Part shown: positions 16,824 to 55,609 of the stretch, in pieces
Numbering within the stretch: the first letter of the stretch is position 1
Layout: every line of letters starts with the position of its first letter
Virus record (IMG/VR): IMGVR_UViG_3300046003_007336
Span: 1-64,000 of that record
DNA from: a virus
DNA: 64,000 bases
Reading direction: 5' to 3' (one strand)
Notes under the pieces: model-generated
What the model saw: the letters and a program-made list of their open reading frames with translations, nothing else
Database searches by the model: none
What the model was told of the DNA's origin: nothing
Program-made: the position numbers and the translations under genes

Positions 16824-17969
16824 CTAGTGCATGTTGTAGTTCAAGTGGTGAAGTCCGTTTTCAGTGAATCGGAAATCTGCTGTTGAGAGGTGGCCCCCTT
16901 TACCGGAGCCGGTATCGAGGAATACGGCTCGACCGCCATTTTCGTTGGTGCACACATACGGCGACATCATCGACCGAATGTCGTGGCCGACCATGACGGT
17001 CTTGCCTGCGGGAATGGAATCCACCCAACGGTATGATCGGACTGGTTGATCGGGTTTCGAGAGATGGTCGTCGATCTCGCCAAAGAATGCGGCGTTCTCA
17101 ACAGTCCTATCAATCTGGCCTTCGTCCCACAGAGCCGAGTGAGCGGCTCCGTGAACAAAGATCACATCGCCAATCTGCCGGAATAGTCGTGAGCGGGAAT
17201 AAAGGCCCCGAAATCGTCCGAGCCACCGAGATTTCGCGGTGTCTCCGAGAGCGGATAGGGCGTTCGTGGTGACACGGTTTCCGTTGCTGAGACGAACCCG
17301 CTGACCGTCTGCCCAGCGCATGATTTTGCGCTCGTGGTTTCCGACCACGAGTTCCGCTTCTCCACGCATGACAAGACGATAGACTTCATCACCAACTTCC
17401 AGTGTCGAGGCTCCATAATCCAAAATGTCGCCGAGGAAAAGCATAAAATGGTTCCGGTCTCGGGCCCACTTGATCACGTCGAGCAACGATTGATACATAC
17501 CGTGCACGTCTCCCACCACAGTGATGCCGCTCCAGTTGCTCTGGATTGCCTCCAGGGGGTCCTCCGGCAGGGGCTGGACGGCATGCACATCATGTAGGCG
17601 GAGATCGATCACATCTGCCACTCCATCGCCTCTGGAGGCCTCTGTGTCGGTTCCACCGTCAGTGACGTAAAAGATCGGCACGCCAACCTGGGCAGCCGCG
17701 CTCGTCAATCGAGCCCGCTGACCACGGTCAAGGCTCTCGCCAACAATGACGACCCGCTGACCAATGCGAAGCTTGATAGCCATCCTGCGCTGAACCTCAG
17801 CGAAAATGAGATCAGACAAAGACCAATGGGGTGGAGCATCACCAATGAGGTCTTTCTGAACCTCCGTGGGGTCGATGACTTCATGGCGTGGGAAGATGCT
17901 CACCCACCCCGCGATACGCTGGACGGGCGGCAGAACAACAACCACACAATGAAGAGGCACGATTTTCAT
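16824..17969 (-). CDS. polynucleotide kinase-phosphatase-like protein with degenerate kinase domain
   Basis: 381 residues from ATG 17969 (TATAGT ends six bases before it). Residues about 1-130 look like the P-loop kinase half of bacterial Pnkp (VIDPTEVQKDLIGD, RIGQRVVIVGESLDRGQRARL, AQVGVPIFYV), but the P-loop GxxGxGKS/T is replaced by LPPVQRIAG, so the kinase should be inactive. Residues about 150-381 are a calcineurin phosphoesterase: VVGDVHGMYQSLLD, LFLGDILDYG, LVVGNHERKI, FVHGAAH, MVGHD. Predicted 2',3'- or 3'-phosphatase acting in RNA or DNA end repair. No ligase domain. Confidence 0.7.
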   Translation of the reverse strand: MKIVPLHCVVVVLPPVQRIAGWVSIFPRHEVIDPTEVQKDLIGDAPPHWSLSDLIFAEVQRRMAIKLRIGQRVVIVGESLDRGQRARLTSAAAQVGVPIFYVTDGGTDTEASRGDGVADVIDLRLHDVHAVQPLPEDPLEAIQSNWSGITVVGDVHGMYQSLLDVIKWARDRNHFMLFLGDILDYGASTLEVGDEVYRLVMRGEAELVVGNHERKIMRWADGQRVRLSNGNRVTTNALSALGDTAKSRWLGRFRGLYSRSRLFRQIGDVIFVHGAAHSALWDEGQIDRTVENAAFFGEIDDHLSKPDQPVRSYRWVDSIPAGKTVMVGHDIRSMMSPYVCTNENGGRAVFLDTGSGKGGHLSTADFRFTENGLHHLNYNMH

Positions 17970-17975
17970 CTTTAT

Positions 17976-17981
17976 ACTATA
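17976..17981 (-). promoter_or_regulatory. -10 box of the phosphoesterase gene
   Basis: Minus-strand TATAGT, six bases before ATG 17969; the -35 region is weak (TCGCCC at N17). Predicts a leaderless start. Confidence 0.35.
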
Positions 17982-18033
17982 TATGATGCAGTATCGGTGG
18001 GCGATTTCTTTGTCGGCCAATCCTCTATTATAT

Positions 18034-18062
18034 TTGACCAAGTAGAGCAAAGGATTCTACCT
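18034..18062 (+). promoter_or_regulatory. candidate promoter of the 18.1-18.8 kb RNA
   Basis: TTGACC (18034-18039), 16-17 bases, TCTACC/CTACCT. It points into the non-coding region; the -10 is weak. Confidence 0.35.
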
Positions 18063-18815
18063 TCCACCATATCTGGCGTTTCAGAGACAAGGTTTCTGGG
18101 CGCCCGGTATCATATCCATCAGGGGTTAATCGCGGCCAACCCCGCCGCGCGACGCAGACCGGGACGAATTTCGAAGGCCGTAAGGCCGATAGACCGGCGA
18201 GTATGAGGTAGATGGACCAGCGAGACGGATTCGGGGATTAGAACCCCCGTGACGGCAACTCGGCACGACCACTGTGGTCTCGTGTAAAAGTGCACCCCGC
18301 ATACGCTATACGTGTATGCAAAAAAGATGATAGCTCTGTCTTCACGCTTTGACATCTATCGACCCGGCACGATCATCCATTCAGTCATGCCGGGAGCTTA
18401 GAACTCACCCTTCTATAACCGTTTCGATCATAACCTTCGGCCAGCGGACAACCATGGACCGTCGAGGTTAACTTGCCCTGTGCGAGACCTCGCGATCAGC
18501 CATGCCGCAGATCAGGACCCGAAAGATCAAGATATGGTGGCTATAAGCAGGTTTCGGGAAACCACCTGCTGGCGTTTATGCGCCTCGTCACTGAATGGAC
18601 GGCTAGTAAACTCAGGATACTCGCTTCACTCTTCCGCGCTTTCAGTAATTCTCCAATTGCCCCCAAGGAGATTACTGGGGGCGCGGGAGAAAAACGGACC
18701 TGAAATCTAGGATTTGAAAACCATGATGGTCTGTCAGTCTTCGAGATAGAGATGAGGGATGAAGGCGAACGTCAGTGAGCCGGGTCCCTCAGATCAGGGG
18801 TTGAGAGCGAAGCGA
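18050..18815 (+). ncRNA. 766-base non-coding region, candidate large structured RNA
   Basis: No ORF here has phage-like protein composition; the 76-78 codon frames are unconvincing. Perfect or near-perfect hairpins are dense: CCCGGT/ACCGGG (18103/18158) enclosing GGGGTT/AACCCC (18123-18143); GGCC-GTAA-GGCC (18176-18187, GNRA loop on +); CGGGG/CCCCG (18232-18249); CACGA..TCGTG (18263-18283); GCATACGC/GTGTATGC (18299-18319); CCCGGCA/TGCCGGG (18363-18393); CGAGGT/ACCTCG (18463-18492); GCAGGT/ACCTGC (18547-18569); GCCCCCA/TGGGGGC (18659-18682). The GNRA loop and the G-U pair in the 18299 stem favour the + strand. Size and density recall large phage RNAs such as GOLLD or ROOL; identity not established. 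Confidence 0.55.
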
Positions 18816-19451
18816 TCACACCCCTCGCGGAAGTCCAGACCACCGAGTGTATACCGACGAAACCTCGTCGATGTGGCAGTTCGACTCCAAGGCCTTCCCA
18901 TACGGGTCTTCGATCTCGAAAGTTCGAGTGCGAGTCGAATTCCCAGGTTGCCCGGCGAGTTCGAAATTCGTCGGGGTATTTGCCCCCATGGTGCCGACGA
19001 CAGTGCAGATCACGTTGATGTGGTCGATGGGATGATCGGACGTGTTCGTCACAGTGACGGACATCTGGCCCATGTCACATCCCCGGCAGACTTCCGAGAA
19101 CTGGACGTCGGACAACTCAACCGACGTGTTCATGATCATCTGGTAGTTGGCCGGAAGGGGCTGGCGATCAGTGAACGCAGTCAGGTAGAGGTCCCGGCCG
19201 GTGTTAATGACGAACGCCGAAGACATCCAGACCACCGCGACCAGGGCGAGGAAGATCATCGTGGCCCAGAACCCGCCGATCTCAGGCATATTGAACGTCA
19301 TACCGCTCGGGTCATCGTTCTCATAATCGAGACGATTGTCGAAGTTGTTCAGGAACCTGTCGGTGTCCCGCTTCGCCATGCGCTTGCCCTTGTCGGCGAA
19401 CATGGTCGCGACGCCAGCGAAGATCGCCGTGTTGGCCAGCCACTTCAACAT
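18816..19451 (-). CDS. membrane-anchored protein with C-terminal beta domain
   Basis: 211 residues from ATG 19451 (TGATG overlap). N-terminal helix (LKWLANTAIFAGVATMF), charged linker, a membrane segment (WATMIFLALVAVVWMSSAFVI, about residues 80-101), then a beta-rich domain (MSVTVTNTSDHPIDHINVICTVVG) resembling the partner gene's C-terminus. Two Cys (CRGC) and another pair may form disulfides, consistent with a periplasmic location. Confidence 0.7.
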   Translation of the reverse strand: MLKWLANTAIFAGVATMFADKGKRMAKRDTDRFLNNFDNRLDYENDDPSGMTFNMPEIGGFWATMIFLALVAVVWMSSAFVINTGRDLYLTAFTDRQPLPANYQMIMNTSVELSDVQFSEVCRGCDMGQMSVTVTNTSDHPIDHINVICTVVGTMGANTPTNFELAGQPGNSTRTRTFEIEDPYGKALESNCHIDEVSSVYTRWSGLPRGV

Positions 19452-19840
19452 CACAGCACCCTCATCATTTCAAACGATTTCCTGCACGCACTCGGATTCT
19501 CTATGCGGCCCTCGCCGTAGAAACGAACCTCGCCCTCCACGGTCTCGCCAGGATTGACGACCTTGATGAACGGCGTCGAGTTGCCGAAGCGACTGCACTC
19601 GAACCTGATCAGGCGGATTTGTTGTTTGGGCGTGTCATTCCGAACCGTGAAGTGCAGAGTCTGCCCGAAAGCATTGGCGGTGGTGAACACATTGGATACC
19701 ACGACCTTGCGATCATAGTAGGAGTCCCACGGCAACATGACAGCCCTGGTTGCTAGAGCGACCACGCTCAGGACAATAAGTCCGAAGACGATCTGTCGCC
19801 AGAACGCCACCATTAGACCCAAGAGACCAGCAAGAACCAT
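19451..19840 (-). CDS. membrane-anchored protein with C-terminal beta domain (paralogue)
   Basis: 129 residues from ATG 19840, chosen because the promoter -10 lies just upstream and AGGAAGG precedes this ATG. N-terminal membrane segments (MVLAGLLGLMVAFWRQIVFGLIVLSVVALA) are followed by a beta domain (LHFTVRNDTPKQQIRLIRFECS, NPGETVEGEVRFYGEG) like that of the next gene. The two coupled genes look like a duplicated pair with periplasmic Ig-like domains. Role unknown. Confidence 0.7.
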   Translation of the reverse strand: MVLAGLLGLMVAFWRQIVFGLIVLSVVALATRAVMLPWDSYYDRKVVVSNVFTTANAFGQTLHFTVRNDTPKQQIRLIRFECSRFGNSTPFIKVVNPGETVEGEVRFYGEGRIENPSACRKSFEMMRVL

Positions 19841-22455: not shown

Positions 22456-24774
22456 TTGAACTCAGATTCCAGCCATCCCGAACTCATTCGCTTCGCGTCG
22501 CAGATGGTGGACATCGCCCGTCGCCAGAAGCACGAAGCCGTCATGCTCGAACACGTCGTCATGACGTGCTTGAAGTCGGACGACGTCATCGAAGCCCTCG
22601 AAAAGCTGGACGTGGACGCCGAGGATGTCGAGGACGACCTGATCAACTATTTCAAGTCGGGCTACATCCCGCAAGTCCAGAATGCGAACCCGCCGCTCAG
22701 CACCACCGTCAACGAAGTGCTGTCGCGTGCCGCCCACTCGGCGAAGTCGCAGAGCCGCGCCGTCACCGGTCTGGATATCCTCGTGAAGGTGTTCGGCTAT
22801 ACGGCCGAAGACAGTTTCGCCGTCGAGGTTCTGACCAAGAACGGCCTGACGGGCTTCAAGCTGTCCAACTACATGGGCGAAGCCTCGGGTGAAGACCCCG
22901 CACTGGCCAACGGCAATCATGGCGGCGGCGCGTTCCAGATCACGAACGCCGACGAGGCCCGCATTTTCCTCGCCAAATACTGCGAGAACCTCAACGACCG
23001 CGCCAAGGAGTCGAAGATCGACCCCCTGATCGGTCGCGAGGATGAAGTCGCCCTGATCGTGCAGATCACGGCCCGTCGCACCAAGAACAACGCCATCCTG
23101 GTCGGTGAACCCGGCGTCGGCAAGACCGCCATCGCGGAGGGTCTGGCCAAGCAGATCGTCGAGGGCAACGTGCCCGCCATTCTGGCCAACGCCGAAGTGT
23201 GGAGCCTCGACGTCGGCGCCCTGATGGCCGGAACGAAATACCGGGGCGAAATGGAAGAGCGTCTGAAGCAGACGATCAAGGCGTTCGAATTCATCGACGA
23301 ATCCATCGTCTTCATCGACGAAATCCACACCATCATGGGTGCGGGCGGCGGCGGCTCCGCGCTCGACATCGCCAACCTGCTGAAGCCCGCCCTGTCCAAG
23401 GGCACGCTGCGCTGCATCGGTTCCACGACCTTCGAGGAGTTCCGCAAGCACTTCGAGAAGGACCGCGCCTTGCTGCGCCGGTTCAAGCGCGTGGACGTCA
23501 ACGAGCCCTCGCTCGAAACGACCAAGCTCATCCTGGCCGGGCTGAAGTTCAAATACGAAGAGTTCCACGGCGTCACCTACACCGACGAAGCCATCGACGC
23601 GGCGGCCGATCTCACCTACCGGTACATCAACAATGCCCTGCTGCCCGACAAGGCCATCGACATCATGGACGCCGCTGGTGCGGCCCAGAAGGTTCGTGGC
23701 GAGGAAGGCCTGAAGGTCATCACCCTCGGTGAGATCGAGACCGAAGTCGCCAAGGTGGCCCGCATCCCGCTCAAGACCATCGCGGAAGACGAGACCGACA
23801 AGCTCACCCATCTGGAAACCGATCTCCAGAAGAGCGTGTTCGGCCAGGACAAGGCCCTGACCGCCCTGTGCGACGCCGTGTTCGTCACCCGCGCCGGTCT
23901 GCGCGACACCAACAAGCCCTCGGGCTCGTTCCTGTTCGCCGGTCCCACGGGCGTCGGCAAGACCGAGGCCACGCGCCAACTCGCCGACACGCTGGGCGTG
24001 CCGCTGATCAAATACGACATGTCTGAGTTCATGGAGAAGCACACCATCTCCAAGCTGATCGGTTCGCCTCCGGGCTACGTTGGCTACGAGGACGGCGGCG
24101 CCGGGTCGGGCAAGCTCGTCAACGACATCGAGACGCACCCCTACTGTGTCCTGCTGCTCGACGAAATCGAGAAGGCTCACCCGGACATTTATTCGATCTT
24201 CCTTCAGGTCATGGATGACGGCGTCCTGACGTCCTCGTCCGGCAAGAAGGTCGATTTCCGCAACGTCATCATCGTCATGACGACGAACGCGGGCGCGTTC
24301 GAGCAGAGCCGGAACACCATCGGTTTCGGGGTGCAGACGGGCGGCGACCCCATGGAGGCGATCAAGCGGCTCTTCACGCCGGAGTTCCTGAACCGCCTCG
24401 ACGCCATCGTGGGCTTCAACCGCCTGTCCCAGGAGCACATCCTGAAGGTGGTGGACAAGTTCCTGCTCAAACTCGCCGAACAGGCCGGGGAGCGCGGCGT
24501 TACCATCGACGTCGGCCCGGAAGCCCGCACGTGGCTGGCCAAGCACGGCTTCGACGACAAGATGGGCGCGCGTCCGCTCAACCGGTCCATCCACGACCAC
24601 ATCAAGACGCCGCTCAGCCGTCAGATGACCATCGGTGATCTGAAGTTCGGCGGCACCGCCACCGTGACCGTGGACGGCGACAAGCTGGTCATCACCTCGG
24701 TGGCGGCCCCGGCCAAGCCGGTCATCGTTCCGGTGATCGAAGCCGAAGAAGAGAAGAGCGCGGTCTCGGTCTAA
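22456..24774 (+). CDS. clpA: ClpA-type AAA+ unfoldase
   Basis: 772 residues, full length for ClpA, from a TTG start. Clp N-domain (about 1-145: IRFASQMVDIARRQKHEAVMLEH) is followed by two AAA modules: Walker A GEPGVGKTAIAEG and Walker B VFIDEIHTIMG; second Walker A GPTGVGKTEATR, Walker B LLLDEIEKAHPD, sensor TTNAGA and arginine-containing NRLDAIVGF. The loop RNTIGFGVQ matches the IGL/IGF element that docks ClpA on ClpP, so it should recruit host ClpP. No ClpP gene is in the window. Very high GC third positions, like its neighbours. Confidence 0.92.
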   Translation: MNSDSSHPELIRFASQMVDIARRQKHEAVMLEHVVMTCLKSDDVIEALEKLDVDAEDVEDDLINYFKSGYIPQVQNANPPLSTTVNEVLSRAAHSAKSQSRAVTGLDILVKVFGYTAEDSFAVEVLTKNGLTGFKLSNYMGEASGEDPALANGNHGGGAFQITNADEARIFLAKYCENLNDRAKESKIDPLIGREDEVALIVQITARRTKNNAILVGEPGVGKTAIAEGLAKQIVEGNVPAILANAEVWSLDVGALMAGTKYRGEMEERLKQTIKAFEFIDESIVFIDEIHTIMGAGGGGSALDIANLLKPALSKGTLRCIGSTTFEEFRKHFEKDRALLRRFKRVDVNEPSLETTKLILAGLKFKYEEFHGVTYTDEAIDAAADLTYRYINNALLPDKAIDIMDAAGAAQKVRGEEGLKVITLGEIETEVAKVARIPLKTIAEDETDKLTHLETDLQKSVFGQDKALTALCDAVFVTRAGLRDTNKPSGSFLFAGPTGVGKTEATRQLADTLGVPLIKYDMSEFMEKHTISKLIGSPPGYVGYEDGGAGSGKLVNDIETHPYCVLLLDEIEKAHPDIYSIFLQVMDDGVLTSSSGKKVDFRNVIIVMTTNAGAFEQSRNTIGFGVQTGGDPMEAIKRLFTPEFLNRLDAIVGFNRLSQEHILKVVDKFLLKLAEQAGERGVTIDVGPEARTWLAKHGFDDKMGARPLNRSIHDHIKTPLSRQMTIGDLKFGGTATVTVDGDKLVITSVAAPAKPVIVPVIEAEEEKSAVSV

Positions 24775-53583: not shown

Positions 53584-53666
53584 AGGGTAGCGGTATATAA
53601 GCAGCCAGGATGGTGATCGGCGCGATGCCGATACGTCCAGCAAAACAATCTAGGAAACGTGGCCTT

Positions 53667-53742
<76 letters not shown>

Positions 53743-53767
53743 CGTCCTAGTATTCACGATGTGTCAT

Positions 53768-53844
53768 CGGGGTATAGCTCAGTCTGGTAGAGCACTCGCT
53801 TTGGGAGCGAGGGGTCAAGAGTTCGAATCCCTTTACCCCGACCA
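53768..53844 (+). tRNA. tRNA-Pro(TGG)
   Basis: CGGGGTA/TACCCCG with C1-G72 and A73 (bacterial Pro identity), anticodon loop TTTGGGA, T loop TTCGAAT, CCA encoded. Confidence 0.95.
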
Positions 53845-53874
53845 CACGTGAATCCTTCAAGGTATCTGCTCAGT

Positions 53875-53948
53875 CGGGGTGTAGCGCAGTCTGGTAGCGC
53901 ACTGGTCTCGGAGTCCAGGGGTCGTAGGTTCGAGTCCTACCGTCCCGA
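53875..53948 (+). tRNA. tRNA-Pro(CGG)
   Basis: CGGGGTG/CGTCCCG, C1-G72, A73, anticodon loop CTCGGAG, T loop TTCGAGT; CCA not encoded. A T-T mismatch lies at 31/39. Confidence 0.85.
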
Positions 53949-53969
53949 CTGAACAGATAGTTTGATCAT

Positions 53970-54026
53970 CGGGGGAGGCCGTGAGAGGCCAGTGCACTGA
54001 GGTGAAAATCCTCCACCCCCCGTCCA
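53970..54026 (+). ncRNA. tRNA-like element A (57 bases, no anticodon arm)
   Basis: CGGGGG/CCCCCG perfect stem followed by TCCA; inner hairpins GGCC-GTGAGA-GGCC and GAGG-TGAAAAT-CCTC (T-arm-like, 7-base loop) with AGTGCACT between. It sits in the tRNA array at normal spacing. Not a functional decoding tRNA as drawn. Confidence 0.4.
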
Positions 54027-54035
54027 AACCATCTT

Positions 54036-54111
54036 GGGGTCTTAGCTCATCTGGTAGAGCGCAACACTGGCAGTGTTGAGGTGGCGGGTTCGAGTCCCGC
54101 AGATTCCACCA
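54036..54111 (+). tRNA. tRNA-Ala(GGC)
   Basis: GGGGTCT/AGATTCC with G3-U70, anticodon loop CTGGCAG, T loop TTCGAGT, A73, CCA encoded. Confidence 0.95.
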
Positions 54112-54116
54112 TTCAT

Positions 54117-54215
54117 GGGCGTGTCGGCGACAACGGGGGCTACCCCGCTAGGCCACCTGCGGTCGGCCCGAAAGGGGGCTTCAGGGAGAGGTGCAAGGCC
54201 TCTCGCGTTCCACCA
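54117..54215 (+). ncRNA. tRNA-like element B (about 99 bases)
   Basis: GGGCGTG can pair with CGCG(T)TCC with one bulged T, giving G1-C72, G2-C71, G3-U70, A73 and encoded CCA. Inside: CGGGG-GCTA-CCCCG, a GGCC/GGCC hairpin with loop TGC, and a T-arm-like GAGAGG-TGCAAGG-CCTCTC. No T-loop consensus. Confidence 0.35.
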
Positions 54216-54248
54216 ACCCCGGCGCAATCCCGCGCCACGAGAACCGAT

Positions 54249-54419
54249 ATGGACAAGAAGACGGAGAAGAAAAAGAAGAAACTGCTAGATCGCATCGCCG
54301 AACTGGAAACCGAACTCCGGCAGTCGCTGGGGAAGAAGGATAGTCGCACCGTCGAGATCGACGTGCCGTCCCAGATGCGGAAGATCGCCGATTTGCAGGC
54401 ACAAGTATCGCGGATGTAA
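54249..54419 (+). CDS. 56-residue coiled-coil protein within tRNA array
   Basis: MDKKTEKKKKKLLDRIAELE and SQMRKIADLQAQVSRM: Lys-rich, coiled-coil, SlyX-like in form. Start ATG 54249; no good Shine-Dalgarno. It ends seven bases before tRNA-Ala(CGC). Confidence 0.55.
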   Translation: MDKKTEKKKKKLLDRIAELETELRQSLGKKDSRTVEIDVPSQMRKIADLQAQVSRM

Positions 54420-54425
54420 ATCCAC

Positions 54426-54500
54426 GGGGATATAGCTTAACGGGTAAAGCGCGCCCCTCGCACGGGCAAGTCTGCGGTTCGATTCCGCATATCTCCACCA
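54426..54500 (+). tRNA. tRNA-Ala(CGC)
   Basis: GGGGATA/TATCTCC with G3-U70, D arm GCTT..AAGC, anticodon loop CTCGCAC on a 4-bp GCCC/GGGC stem, T loop TTCGATT, A73, CCA encoded. Confidence 0.9.
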
Positions 54501-54505
54501 ACAAC

Positions 54506-54577
54506 GGGCGGCACAGCCAGTGCAATGGGAATAAGCTTTCCCAGAAGAGTGGGAGTGGCTCTCCCCTCCGTCCACCA
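54506..54577 (+). ncRNA. tRNA-like element C (72 bases)
   Basis: GGGCGG pairs with CCGTCC giving G1-C72, G2-C71, G3-U70, then A73 and encoded CCA. A hairpin TGGGAA-TAAGCT-TTCCCA stands at the anticodon-arm position (6-base loop), and GGGAG-TGGCT-CTCCC replaces the T arm. tRNA size with Ala-type acceptor, but no T-loop consensus. Confidence 0.4.
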
Positions 54578-54582
54578 AACAG

Positions 54583-54661
54583 GGGCCAGAGAACCACAGG
54601 CGTGGTTCGACGGTGAAGGGGGTCGCTCCTCCATGGGGTTCGATGCCCCACTGGTCCACCA
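54583..54661 (+). ncRNA. tRNA-like element D (79 bases)
   Basis: GGGCCAG/CTGGTCC with G3-U70 and A73-CCA, and a fully canonical T arm TGGGG-TTCGATG-CCCCA. The D arm is replaced by AACCAC-AGGC-GTGGTT and the anticodon arm is a 4-bp CGAC/GTCG stem with a 10-base loop. Overlaps the 5' extension of the AlaRS-like frame. Confidence 0.5.
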
Positions 54662-54690
54662 TTTCAACACCAACATCCTGGGAGGATGCT

Positions 54691-55544
54691 ATGACACTGC
54701 GGGACGCCTAACAGAGACCTACCGGACTTTCTGCCTCGAACGCGGCATTGAGTTTCATGAGGTCAAGAGTGTGAGACCACACGACAACACGACCTTGTTC
54801 TGCCCTGCGGGGATGCAGCAGTTCAAGGAAGACTACCGGGGACATCGTCGCGGGACCGTATCCAATATTCAGTCCTGCATCCGGCTCAATGATCTGGATG
54901 AAATCGGCGACCAAACCCACCACCTAACCTTCGACATGATCGGGCTGTTTTCGTTCCGTGACATGAGCGTTCTGGAGACCATCGATTTCTGGTTCGAATT
55001 CCTCTCCAAGATTGGCATCAAGCCCGACGTGGTCACCATCCACCCGGACAAGATGCTGGACTGGCGAGAACTCTATCGGGGCCGCGACGTAGAAATACGG
55101 CCGGACCCGGAGTGCACGTGGTCGGACGGCGGCATGGGTGGATACTGCACGGAGTTCTACGTCAGAGGCGTGGAGATCGGCAACATCGTGAATACCAACG
55201 GAGATTCAATCGACGTCGGTTTCGGGATGGAACGCCTTCTCTGGGTTCTCGGCGAAGAAACGCCACCGCGTGGGGACATCCTGGTCCGCACCATCGACCG
55301 CATCGTTGAGTCGGGATACCGGCCCAGCGGCAAGCAGCAGGGTCATGTGCTCCGGCGCCTGATCGGGTTGCTGACAGACGAGGGCAGCCATCCCAACCAC
55401 CCCGAGGTCGTCAGCGAGACGTCCAGACGGGTGAAGCTCTCGGAACGCTTCGACCGCCTTTGGCCGAAGCATCAAGACAAGTCGCCAGAGTGGTGGCTGG
55501 ACACCCACGGTATCGTGGTGTCTGAAATGGTCCTCAGGGTGTAG
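54691..55544 (+). CDS. alanyl-tRNA synthetase catalytic core, apparent -1 frameshift at start
   Basis: About 284 residues if translation starts at ATG 54691 (GGGAGG upstream; reads MTLRDA then TAA) and shifts -1 into the long frame at CTA 54708; the long frame has no good start after tRNA-like element D. The frame shows AlaRS class-II landmarks: NTTLFCPAGMQQFK, SNIQSCIRLNDLDEIGDQTHHLTFDMIGLFSF, CTWSDGGMGGYCTEFYV, SIDVGFGMERLLWVLG and VLRRLIGLL. Bacterial AlaRS is about 870 residues; editing and C-Ala domains are missing. The stop lies inside tRNA-Pro(GGG). Confidence 0.8.
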
Positions 55545-55609
55545 CTCAGTGGCAGAGCGCACGGTCGGGAATCGTGAGGCCGGGATTTCAAAATTCCCCA
55601 CCCTGACCA
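55535..55609 (+). tRNA. tRNA-Pro(GGG)-like
   Basis: CAGGGTG/CACCCTG with C1-G72 and A73 (Pro identity), D arm GCTC..GAGC, anticodon stem CACGG/TCGTG, loop TCGGGAA (C at 33 instead of U), T loop TTCAAAA with one T-T mismatch in the stem; CCA encoded. Its 5' ten bases overlap the AlaRS-like stop. Confidence 0.75.

Follow-up and report, generated by a model that had tools for sequence, protein, structure and literature searches.

Evidence for a new family of large structured RNAs in huge phages and in Azospirillum

ROOL, one of the large RNAs of phages, is about 600 nt in size, and RNAs so large and complex are, to our knowledge, few among bacteria and phages. GOLLD, a large structured non-coding RNA of phages and prophages that in many cases exceeds 800 nt, rises during lysis; both GOLLD and ROOL form RNA-only cages, and ROOL is described as carrying several pseudoknots (PMC12286853). 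Phage ICP1 makes a non-coding RNA of about 800 nt, its most abundant transcript, from an ORF-less gap by the lysis cluster (PMC7567579). The window analysed here is a stretch of 64,000 nucleotides, bases 1-64000 of a viral record of 198,512 bases, and includes at 18050-18815 a gap that is almost certainly the gene of one member of a family of structured non-coding RNAs. The homologues support well the view that these large phage RNAs make up a new family; its mode of action we infer.

The gap in the window and its predicted transcript

The gap is bordered on its left by a minus-strand phosphatase gene (Metallophos, NinI-like) with a likely ATG start at 17969, and on its right by a minus-strand ORF of 212 aa that ends at 18816 and has no match in Pfam or PHROG. 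The initial annotation had found no credible ORF in the gap, and this reading holds. The ORFs of at least 60 aa lying wholly within it have 78, 76 and 76 aa, and two further ones enter it from its flanks (17826-18206, 126 aa; 18759-19520, 253 aa, opposite the minus-strand gene). A tblastn comparison of the three internal ORFs and 17826-18206 with 20 homologous regions gave no convincing counterpart of these four (best E 0.009 over 25 aa). Elsewhere in the window, 53644-54041, with tRNA genes inside, is likewise free of ORFs of at least 60 aa, and six tRNA genes at 53667-55609 have anticodons for Ala and Pro only (tgc, ggc, cgc; tgg, cgg, ggg).

A predicted sigma70-like promoter on the plus strand (18033..18063) consists of TTGACC at 18034-18039, an 18-nt spacer with GATTC and a -10-like TACCTT at 18058-18063, from which transcription would start near 18070. 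The site aligns with similar sites of homologues, and TTGAC..GATTCKA occurs once in the 64 kb, at this very place. A loose regular expression (TTGAC/TCGAC..TAnnnT) matches somewhere upstream in 12 of the 21 family members, a count without a chance baseline. The promoter proposed at 18034 in the initial annotation is thus upheld as to its elements, but the TTGACC site is absent from the list of a consensus promoter scanner. The core RNA would run from 18070 to 18718 on the plus strand, both ends being predicted and 11 members having been aligned from the promoter to the downstream motif R2. No terminator for it was found, and the 3' end is not fixed. A 3' hairpin, AGGGGT..GAGCGAAGCGA..ACACCCCT (18792..18828, plus strand), runs into the end of the convergent gene; 32 of its 37 bases are identical in the copy of a 607-kb phage. 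Beyond the core, downstream of R2, 3' hairpins with palindromes of the GAGCGAAGCGA type recur in several members and are possibly a separate repeat.

Members of the family and their distribution

A contig of 107 kb carries an identical copy of the window RNA. The phosphatase gene led to a contig of 607,744 bases (G002), where a weak 24-nt match (E 0.217) marks a stretch poor in ORFs that has the motifs of the window RNA in unchanged order. Motif patterns then gave more members on viral contigs and one in a bacterium, Azospirillum sp. TSH64 (L073), where the core domain is on the minus strand at G008:C1:2303651-2303800. Scans of this kind are biased towards sequences in which the motifs are retained. 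On reading, 9 of 11, 5 of 8 (locus L040 counted), 9 of 17 and 2 of 10 matches were rejected in the viral-contig and other motif scans, as were 14 of 15 in the bacterial-contig scan that gave TSH64; another scan kept 2 of 2. Searches with blastn against phages, and against plasmids with the G008 and G016 copies alone as queries, returned short pieces at E of about 0.2-0.9, or none.

Two covariance models were built, model R1 from 11 training members and model R2 from 21. Model R1 matches the window, itself part of the training set, at 18267-18427 with 93.6 bits. In 11 records it found seven untrained copies within G002, G004, G005 and G006, six of them at 54.7-113.8 bits and one at 27.7; two further matches there, with some 10 bits each (E 3.2 and 3.9), were disregarded. 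Over 145 genomes related to TSH64 it found four copies, TSH64 included (the other three at 87.6-109.5 bits), and over 385 genomes of the class TSH64 only. Model R2, over 398 genomes of the phylum, gave TSH64 and, at 45.3 bits, a truncated copy in G706. Whenever more than 40 genomes were searched, stricter filters applied, with which weak matches are lost. The 5' half of the truncated copy (L138, G706:C14:346495-346633) looks conserved, and its 3' half is replaced by unrelated sequence. No copy was found in Atu_ph07 and Phosso by models R1 and R2, or in PBECO4, PTm1 and an Acinetobacter phage contig by model R2. A match of model R2 in PA5oct (E 0.00235) was rejected, since none of the other motifs was seen and it lies opposite an annotated gene. 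Locus L040, on a 22.7-kb contig, matched the motif pattern but neither model and was left out; its minus strand reads AACTCAGG - hairpin - AAATCTAGG at 2582-2684, with TGTAACCGTT upstream, which may be a remote variant or chance.

Motif scans and the covariance model together give 21 distinct members, 17 viral and 4 bacterial, the latter in Azospirillum sp. TSH64 and relatives. Sixteen of the 17 viral members are on records of 198-608 kb. The viral copies number one in the window, two in G009, three in G002, two in G004, four each in G005 and G006, and one in G007, a contig of 39.8 kb; these are lower bounds because records may be incomplete. Contig G011 is overlapped by the end of the window record (99.8% over 13,279 bases) and is also matched by the first part of G009, a record of 240,363 bases (100% over 1,696 bases). 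As both ends match G011, the window record and G009 are very probably neighbouring parts of one phage of about 439 kb or more with three copies, as judged from a comparison of the ends only. GC content, taken over the stretches read, lies between 36% (G005, G007) and 59% (G009). A FastTree tree of the 21 members joins the intragenomic pairs G002a/b and G009a/b; its deep nodes are weak, and no orthology was assigned.

A conserved fold on the plus strand

The 766 nt of the gap fold with a z of -5.41 on the plus strand vs. -1.62 on the minus strand (20 shuffles), and a 600-nt piece with -4.27 and -2.29; a piece trimmed to 500 nt from 18120 reaches just -1.45 and 0.02. Since the plus-strand value of this trimmed piece is no more extreme than the scatter among 42 other samples of 500 nt from the window (mean z -0.95, sd 1.4, three below -3.5), the fold energy of the single window sequence is weak evidence, and it is the homologues that are decisive as to whether the gap encodes a structured RNA.

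The core domain of the covariance models (18254..18427, plus strand) comprises the GGCnnCTCG region and, on the same strand, a TGTCTT..TTTGACA hairpin (18328-18361), a hairpin of variable sequence, here CCCGGCA/TGCCGGG (18363-18394), and ATAACCGTT (18415-18423). In the 11-member core 91.7% is paired and 23 of 30 pairs show double changes, with a covariation score of 0.601 vs. 0.256 when shuffled and up to 0.205 for slides. The 21-member core, counted over 147 model positions, has 95.0% paired cells vs. 75.7 in shuffles, double-sided change in 22 of 26 pairs and a covariation score of 0.604 vs. 0.235, slid partners giving 0.035-0.149; none of 500 shuffles attains any of these measures. That the core beats its slid versions is partly due to the structure having been derived from the same alignment. 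Despite this shared alignment, the excess of double-change cells (111 vs. 30.6) is large. The large structured RNA suspected in the initial annotation is thereby supported by covariation in 11 and then in 21 homologues. The family is long and multi-helical, shows compensatory changes and yielded no conserved ORF, the attributes of a large ornate phage RNA.

Upstream of the core domain, an H-type pseudoknot (18122..18149, plus strand) pairs GGGGTT (18122-18127) with AACCCC (18138-18143) and CGCGG (18131-18135) with CCGCG (18145-18149). A strict search found such a pseudoknot in 18 of 21 members and nothing in G009a, G006c and G006d; the stems differ in sequence among members (GGGGTT/AACCCC, GGAAG/CTTCC, GGGC/GCCC and others). 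The score in the window is reached by none of 40 shuffles, and that of the 18 members together in 32 of 720 shuffle trials, the weak cases being G002c, G004b and G024 (5-7 of 40 each). A CCGGGAC motif (18159..18165, plus strand) is exact in five of the nine first members. The GNRA-capped hairpin noted earlier is present on the plus strand at 18547..18569, with the stem GCAGGT/ACCTGC, an internal loop and a GG-GAAA-CC cap (loop GAAA at 18558-18561), and the loop of this GG-NNNN-CC hairpin is of GNRA type in 16 of 21 members.

Transcription of the plus strand, as first proposed, is favoured by the promoter-like site, by the fact that 18 of the 21 members fold better on that strand (mean z -4.40 vs. 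-2.71; exceptions G007, G006d and G024) and by a count from the alignment table of 11 members, whose core helices contain 23 G-U vs. 10 A-C cells. For L028, folding is good on the minus strand too (z -4.26). The same three lines, together with the recurrence of pseudoknot and GNRA cap and the presence of 2-4 copies per genome, tell against a DNA element. In that view the gap would be an origin of replication or a site of packaging or recombination, in which hairpins and twin repeats would act as DNA and transcription would be incidental. Such an element would accord with the twin direct repeats that flank a long hairpin and with the integrase or resolvase genes near the bacterial copies, but we consider it very unlikely.

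Twin motifs, genomic neighbours and comparison with known RNAs

Towards the 3' end, a hairpin termed R1 (18605..18621, plus strand; stem AGTA/TACT) carries in its loop the motif ACTCA-X (18610-18616), and its twin R2 reads ATCTA-X (18705..18711, plus strand), with the same X as R1 within the molecule. They are separated by a long hairpin (18631..18689, plus strand) of about 20 bp in the predicted fold; L028 has a long hairpin at the equivalent place. All members have ACTCA-X followed 72-148 nt downstream by ATCTA-X, the core of R2 being altered in G024 and G002c. X starts with GGAT in many members and elsewhere with GGG, GGTAC, TGGT, AGAT, TCAGA or CGGAAAT; it tends to match within one molecule and varies between members. 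R1 and R2 agree at 47 of 64 positions in 16 members vs. 26.3 expected (maximum 41 in 20,000 permutations that do not keep relatedness among members), a count that left out five hand-set members and the bases of the search motif. It replaced a first test (104 of 126 agree, mean 66.4, maximum 87) because the anchors used there included part of X and were set by hand in 5 members. Paralogues with the same X are G004 and G004b as well as G005a and G005c; X differs among G002a/b/c, the G006 copies, G005b and G005d.

Complementarity in the R1 stem over 21 members amounts to 219 vs. 172.9 permuted (maximum 205 in 3000, relatedness again not kept). Besides this stem (z 4.4; about 145 windows, two X copies), no clear partner for X was found in cis. 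The second-best window, 34 nt before R1, has a z of 3.0 (4 of 2000) and is unremarkable because so many windows were tested, and a pairing of X with the TGTCTT loop, suggested at first, was not significant in the window scan. The simplest reading is that the partner of X would act in trans. It is also conceivable, if quite unlikely, that the RNA is a conformational switch and toggles between two folds, the strand 5' of R1 pairing with the tail of either R1 or R2. The R1-tail value above would fit, as would an R2-tail complementarity of 177 vs. 152.0 (1 of 3000 permutations as high), which is not independent because the two tails resemble each other; but several members have no good R2-tail helix, and the identity of R1 and R2 reaches bases beyond the helix.

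In the window, genes for an Rz-like spanin, DnaJ and a ClpA-like protein follow the RNA at a distance of 1.5 kb, and G002b, G004a and G006a lie before a DNA polymerase/exonuclease-like gene (phrog_17, phrog_403). Spanin genes are also near G004b (weak, E 2.4e-4), G005c and G007, a DnaJ gene is near G007 and G006c, and G005d adjoins an endolysin gene. Since the neighbours of other copies differ, there is no constant gene partner. The ClpA-like gene of the window (22456-24774), encoding an AAA+ protease subunit after DnaJ and spanin, has a product about 50% identical to proteins of Atu_ph07 and Phosso.

All four full bacterial copies have integrase or resolvase genes within about 3 kb. The neighbours of G008 are an integrase and then BrxA, BrxB and BrxC (BREX); those of G024 are a resolvase, a methyltransferase, HamB and HamA (Hachiman) and PDC-S71; G031 has an integrase and a resolvase, and G016 an integrase-type arm-DNA-binding protein. 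With such surroundings, the RNA could be a trans-acting regulator or decoy that sequesters a host or defence factor and that islands carry as a counter-measure or bait. We judge this unlikely: islands collect many unrelated genes, and of seven proteins encoded close to the G016 and G031 copies none has a PADLOC match.

The best explanation overall, which we hold to be fairly probable, is a stable, independently transcribed plus-strand non-coding RNA with a core of about 600-650 nt that acts through its fold, combined with the view that it assembles. In infected cells a host-type promoter of its own would drive synthesis of the RNA, which would fold by itself and work through its three-dimensional fold. 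Both X-bearing motifs of a molecule would bind one kind of partner, in all likelihood further copies of the RNA or else a cognate protein, and the outcome would be a symmetric assembly, of RNA or of RNA and protein, as known for GOLLD and ROOL, a different X keeping some paralogues apart. Assembly mediated by the loops we propose tentatively, from the analysis of the twin motifs. Such phages are the probable source from which mobile DNA acquired the rare bacterial copies, and these may disturb phage assembly or take advantage of it, although it is rather doubtful that they act against or parasitise phages. Equally speculative is a new class of RNA machines, in which the sets of paralogues in huge phages, many with their own twice-written address X, would assemble by address with themselves or a cognate target and would have been captured by mobile bacterial DNA for phage conflict. 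A packaging RNA resembling pRNA, or a virion component forming a ring on the portal, would also be phage-borne and structured, and twin motifs could conceivably link its subunits; several diverged copies per genome and a size far above the 174 nt of phi29 pRNA make it highly improbable.

The initial annotation could match the region to neither GOLLD nor ROOL and thought that it may be new. In agreement with this, a search of Rfam (4227 families) gave no bacterial family at gathering or permissive thresholds, and the GOLLD (RF01998), ROOL and HEARO models gave no match at E up to 10 in the window and L028, or at E up to 0.5 in 20 of the 21 member loci (G024, i.e. L120, was left out). Rfam models of introns, RNase P and tmRNA did not match either, and ARAGORN lists no tmRNA within the window. 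Models of miRNA and snoRNA matched below gathering scores only, such as mir-135 in L104 (E 5.8e-6) and mir-3173 in L028 (E 0.02) on the RNA strand of the long hairpin region between R1 and R2; these are read as chance resemblance to such a long hairpin. Among the literature matches listed, from partly broad queries that covered few subscription papers, none described a large RNA from huge phages or from Azospirillum. A divergent GOLLD or ROOL overlooked by the Rfam models would have a similar size class, a phage location and a large multi-helix fold, but with no model match at these thresholds this is a very faint prospect, the family being set apart from both by a model search run without a positive control.

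The family is like GOLLD and ROOL in kind, having tested negative for membership of either by covariance model. With GOLLD it has in common that it is a large structured phage RNA; in contrast to GOLLD, the nearest tRNA gene in the window is 15 kb off and the family has several copies per phage. With ROOL it shares a similar size class, the phage location and a pseudoknot, without a model match, whereas the twin ACTCA-X and ATCTA-X are not mentioned for ROOL in the available part of its description (PMC12286853). The ICP1 RNA is likened to the family by description, several copies here being near spanin genes. A family unrelated to GOLLD and ROOL by model search, and present both in huge phages and in culturable Azospirillum, would make it possible to test directly what purpose such RNAs serve in phages, and the twin X motifs offer a specific hypothesis open to mutagenesis.
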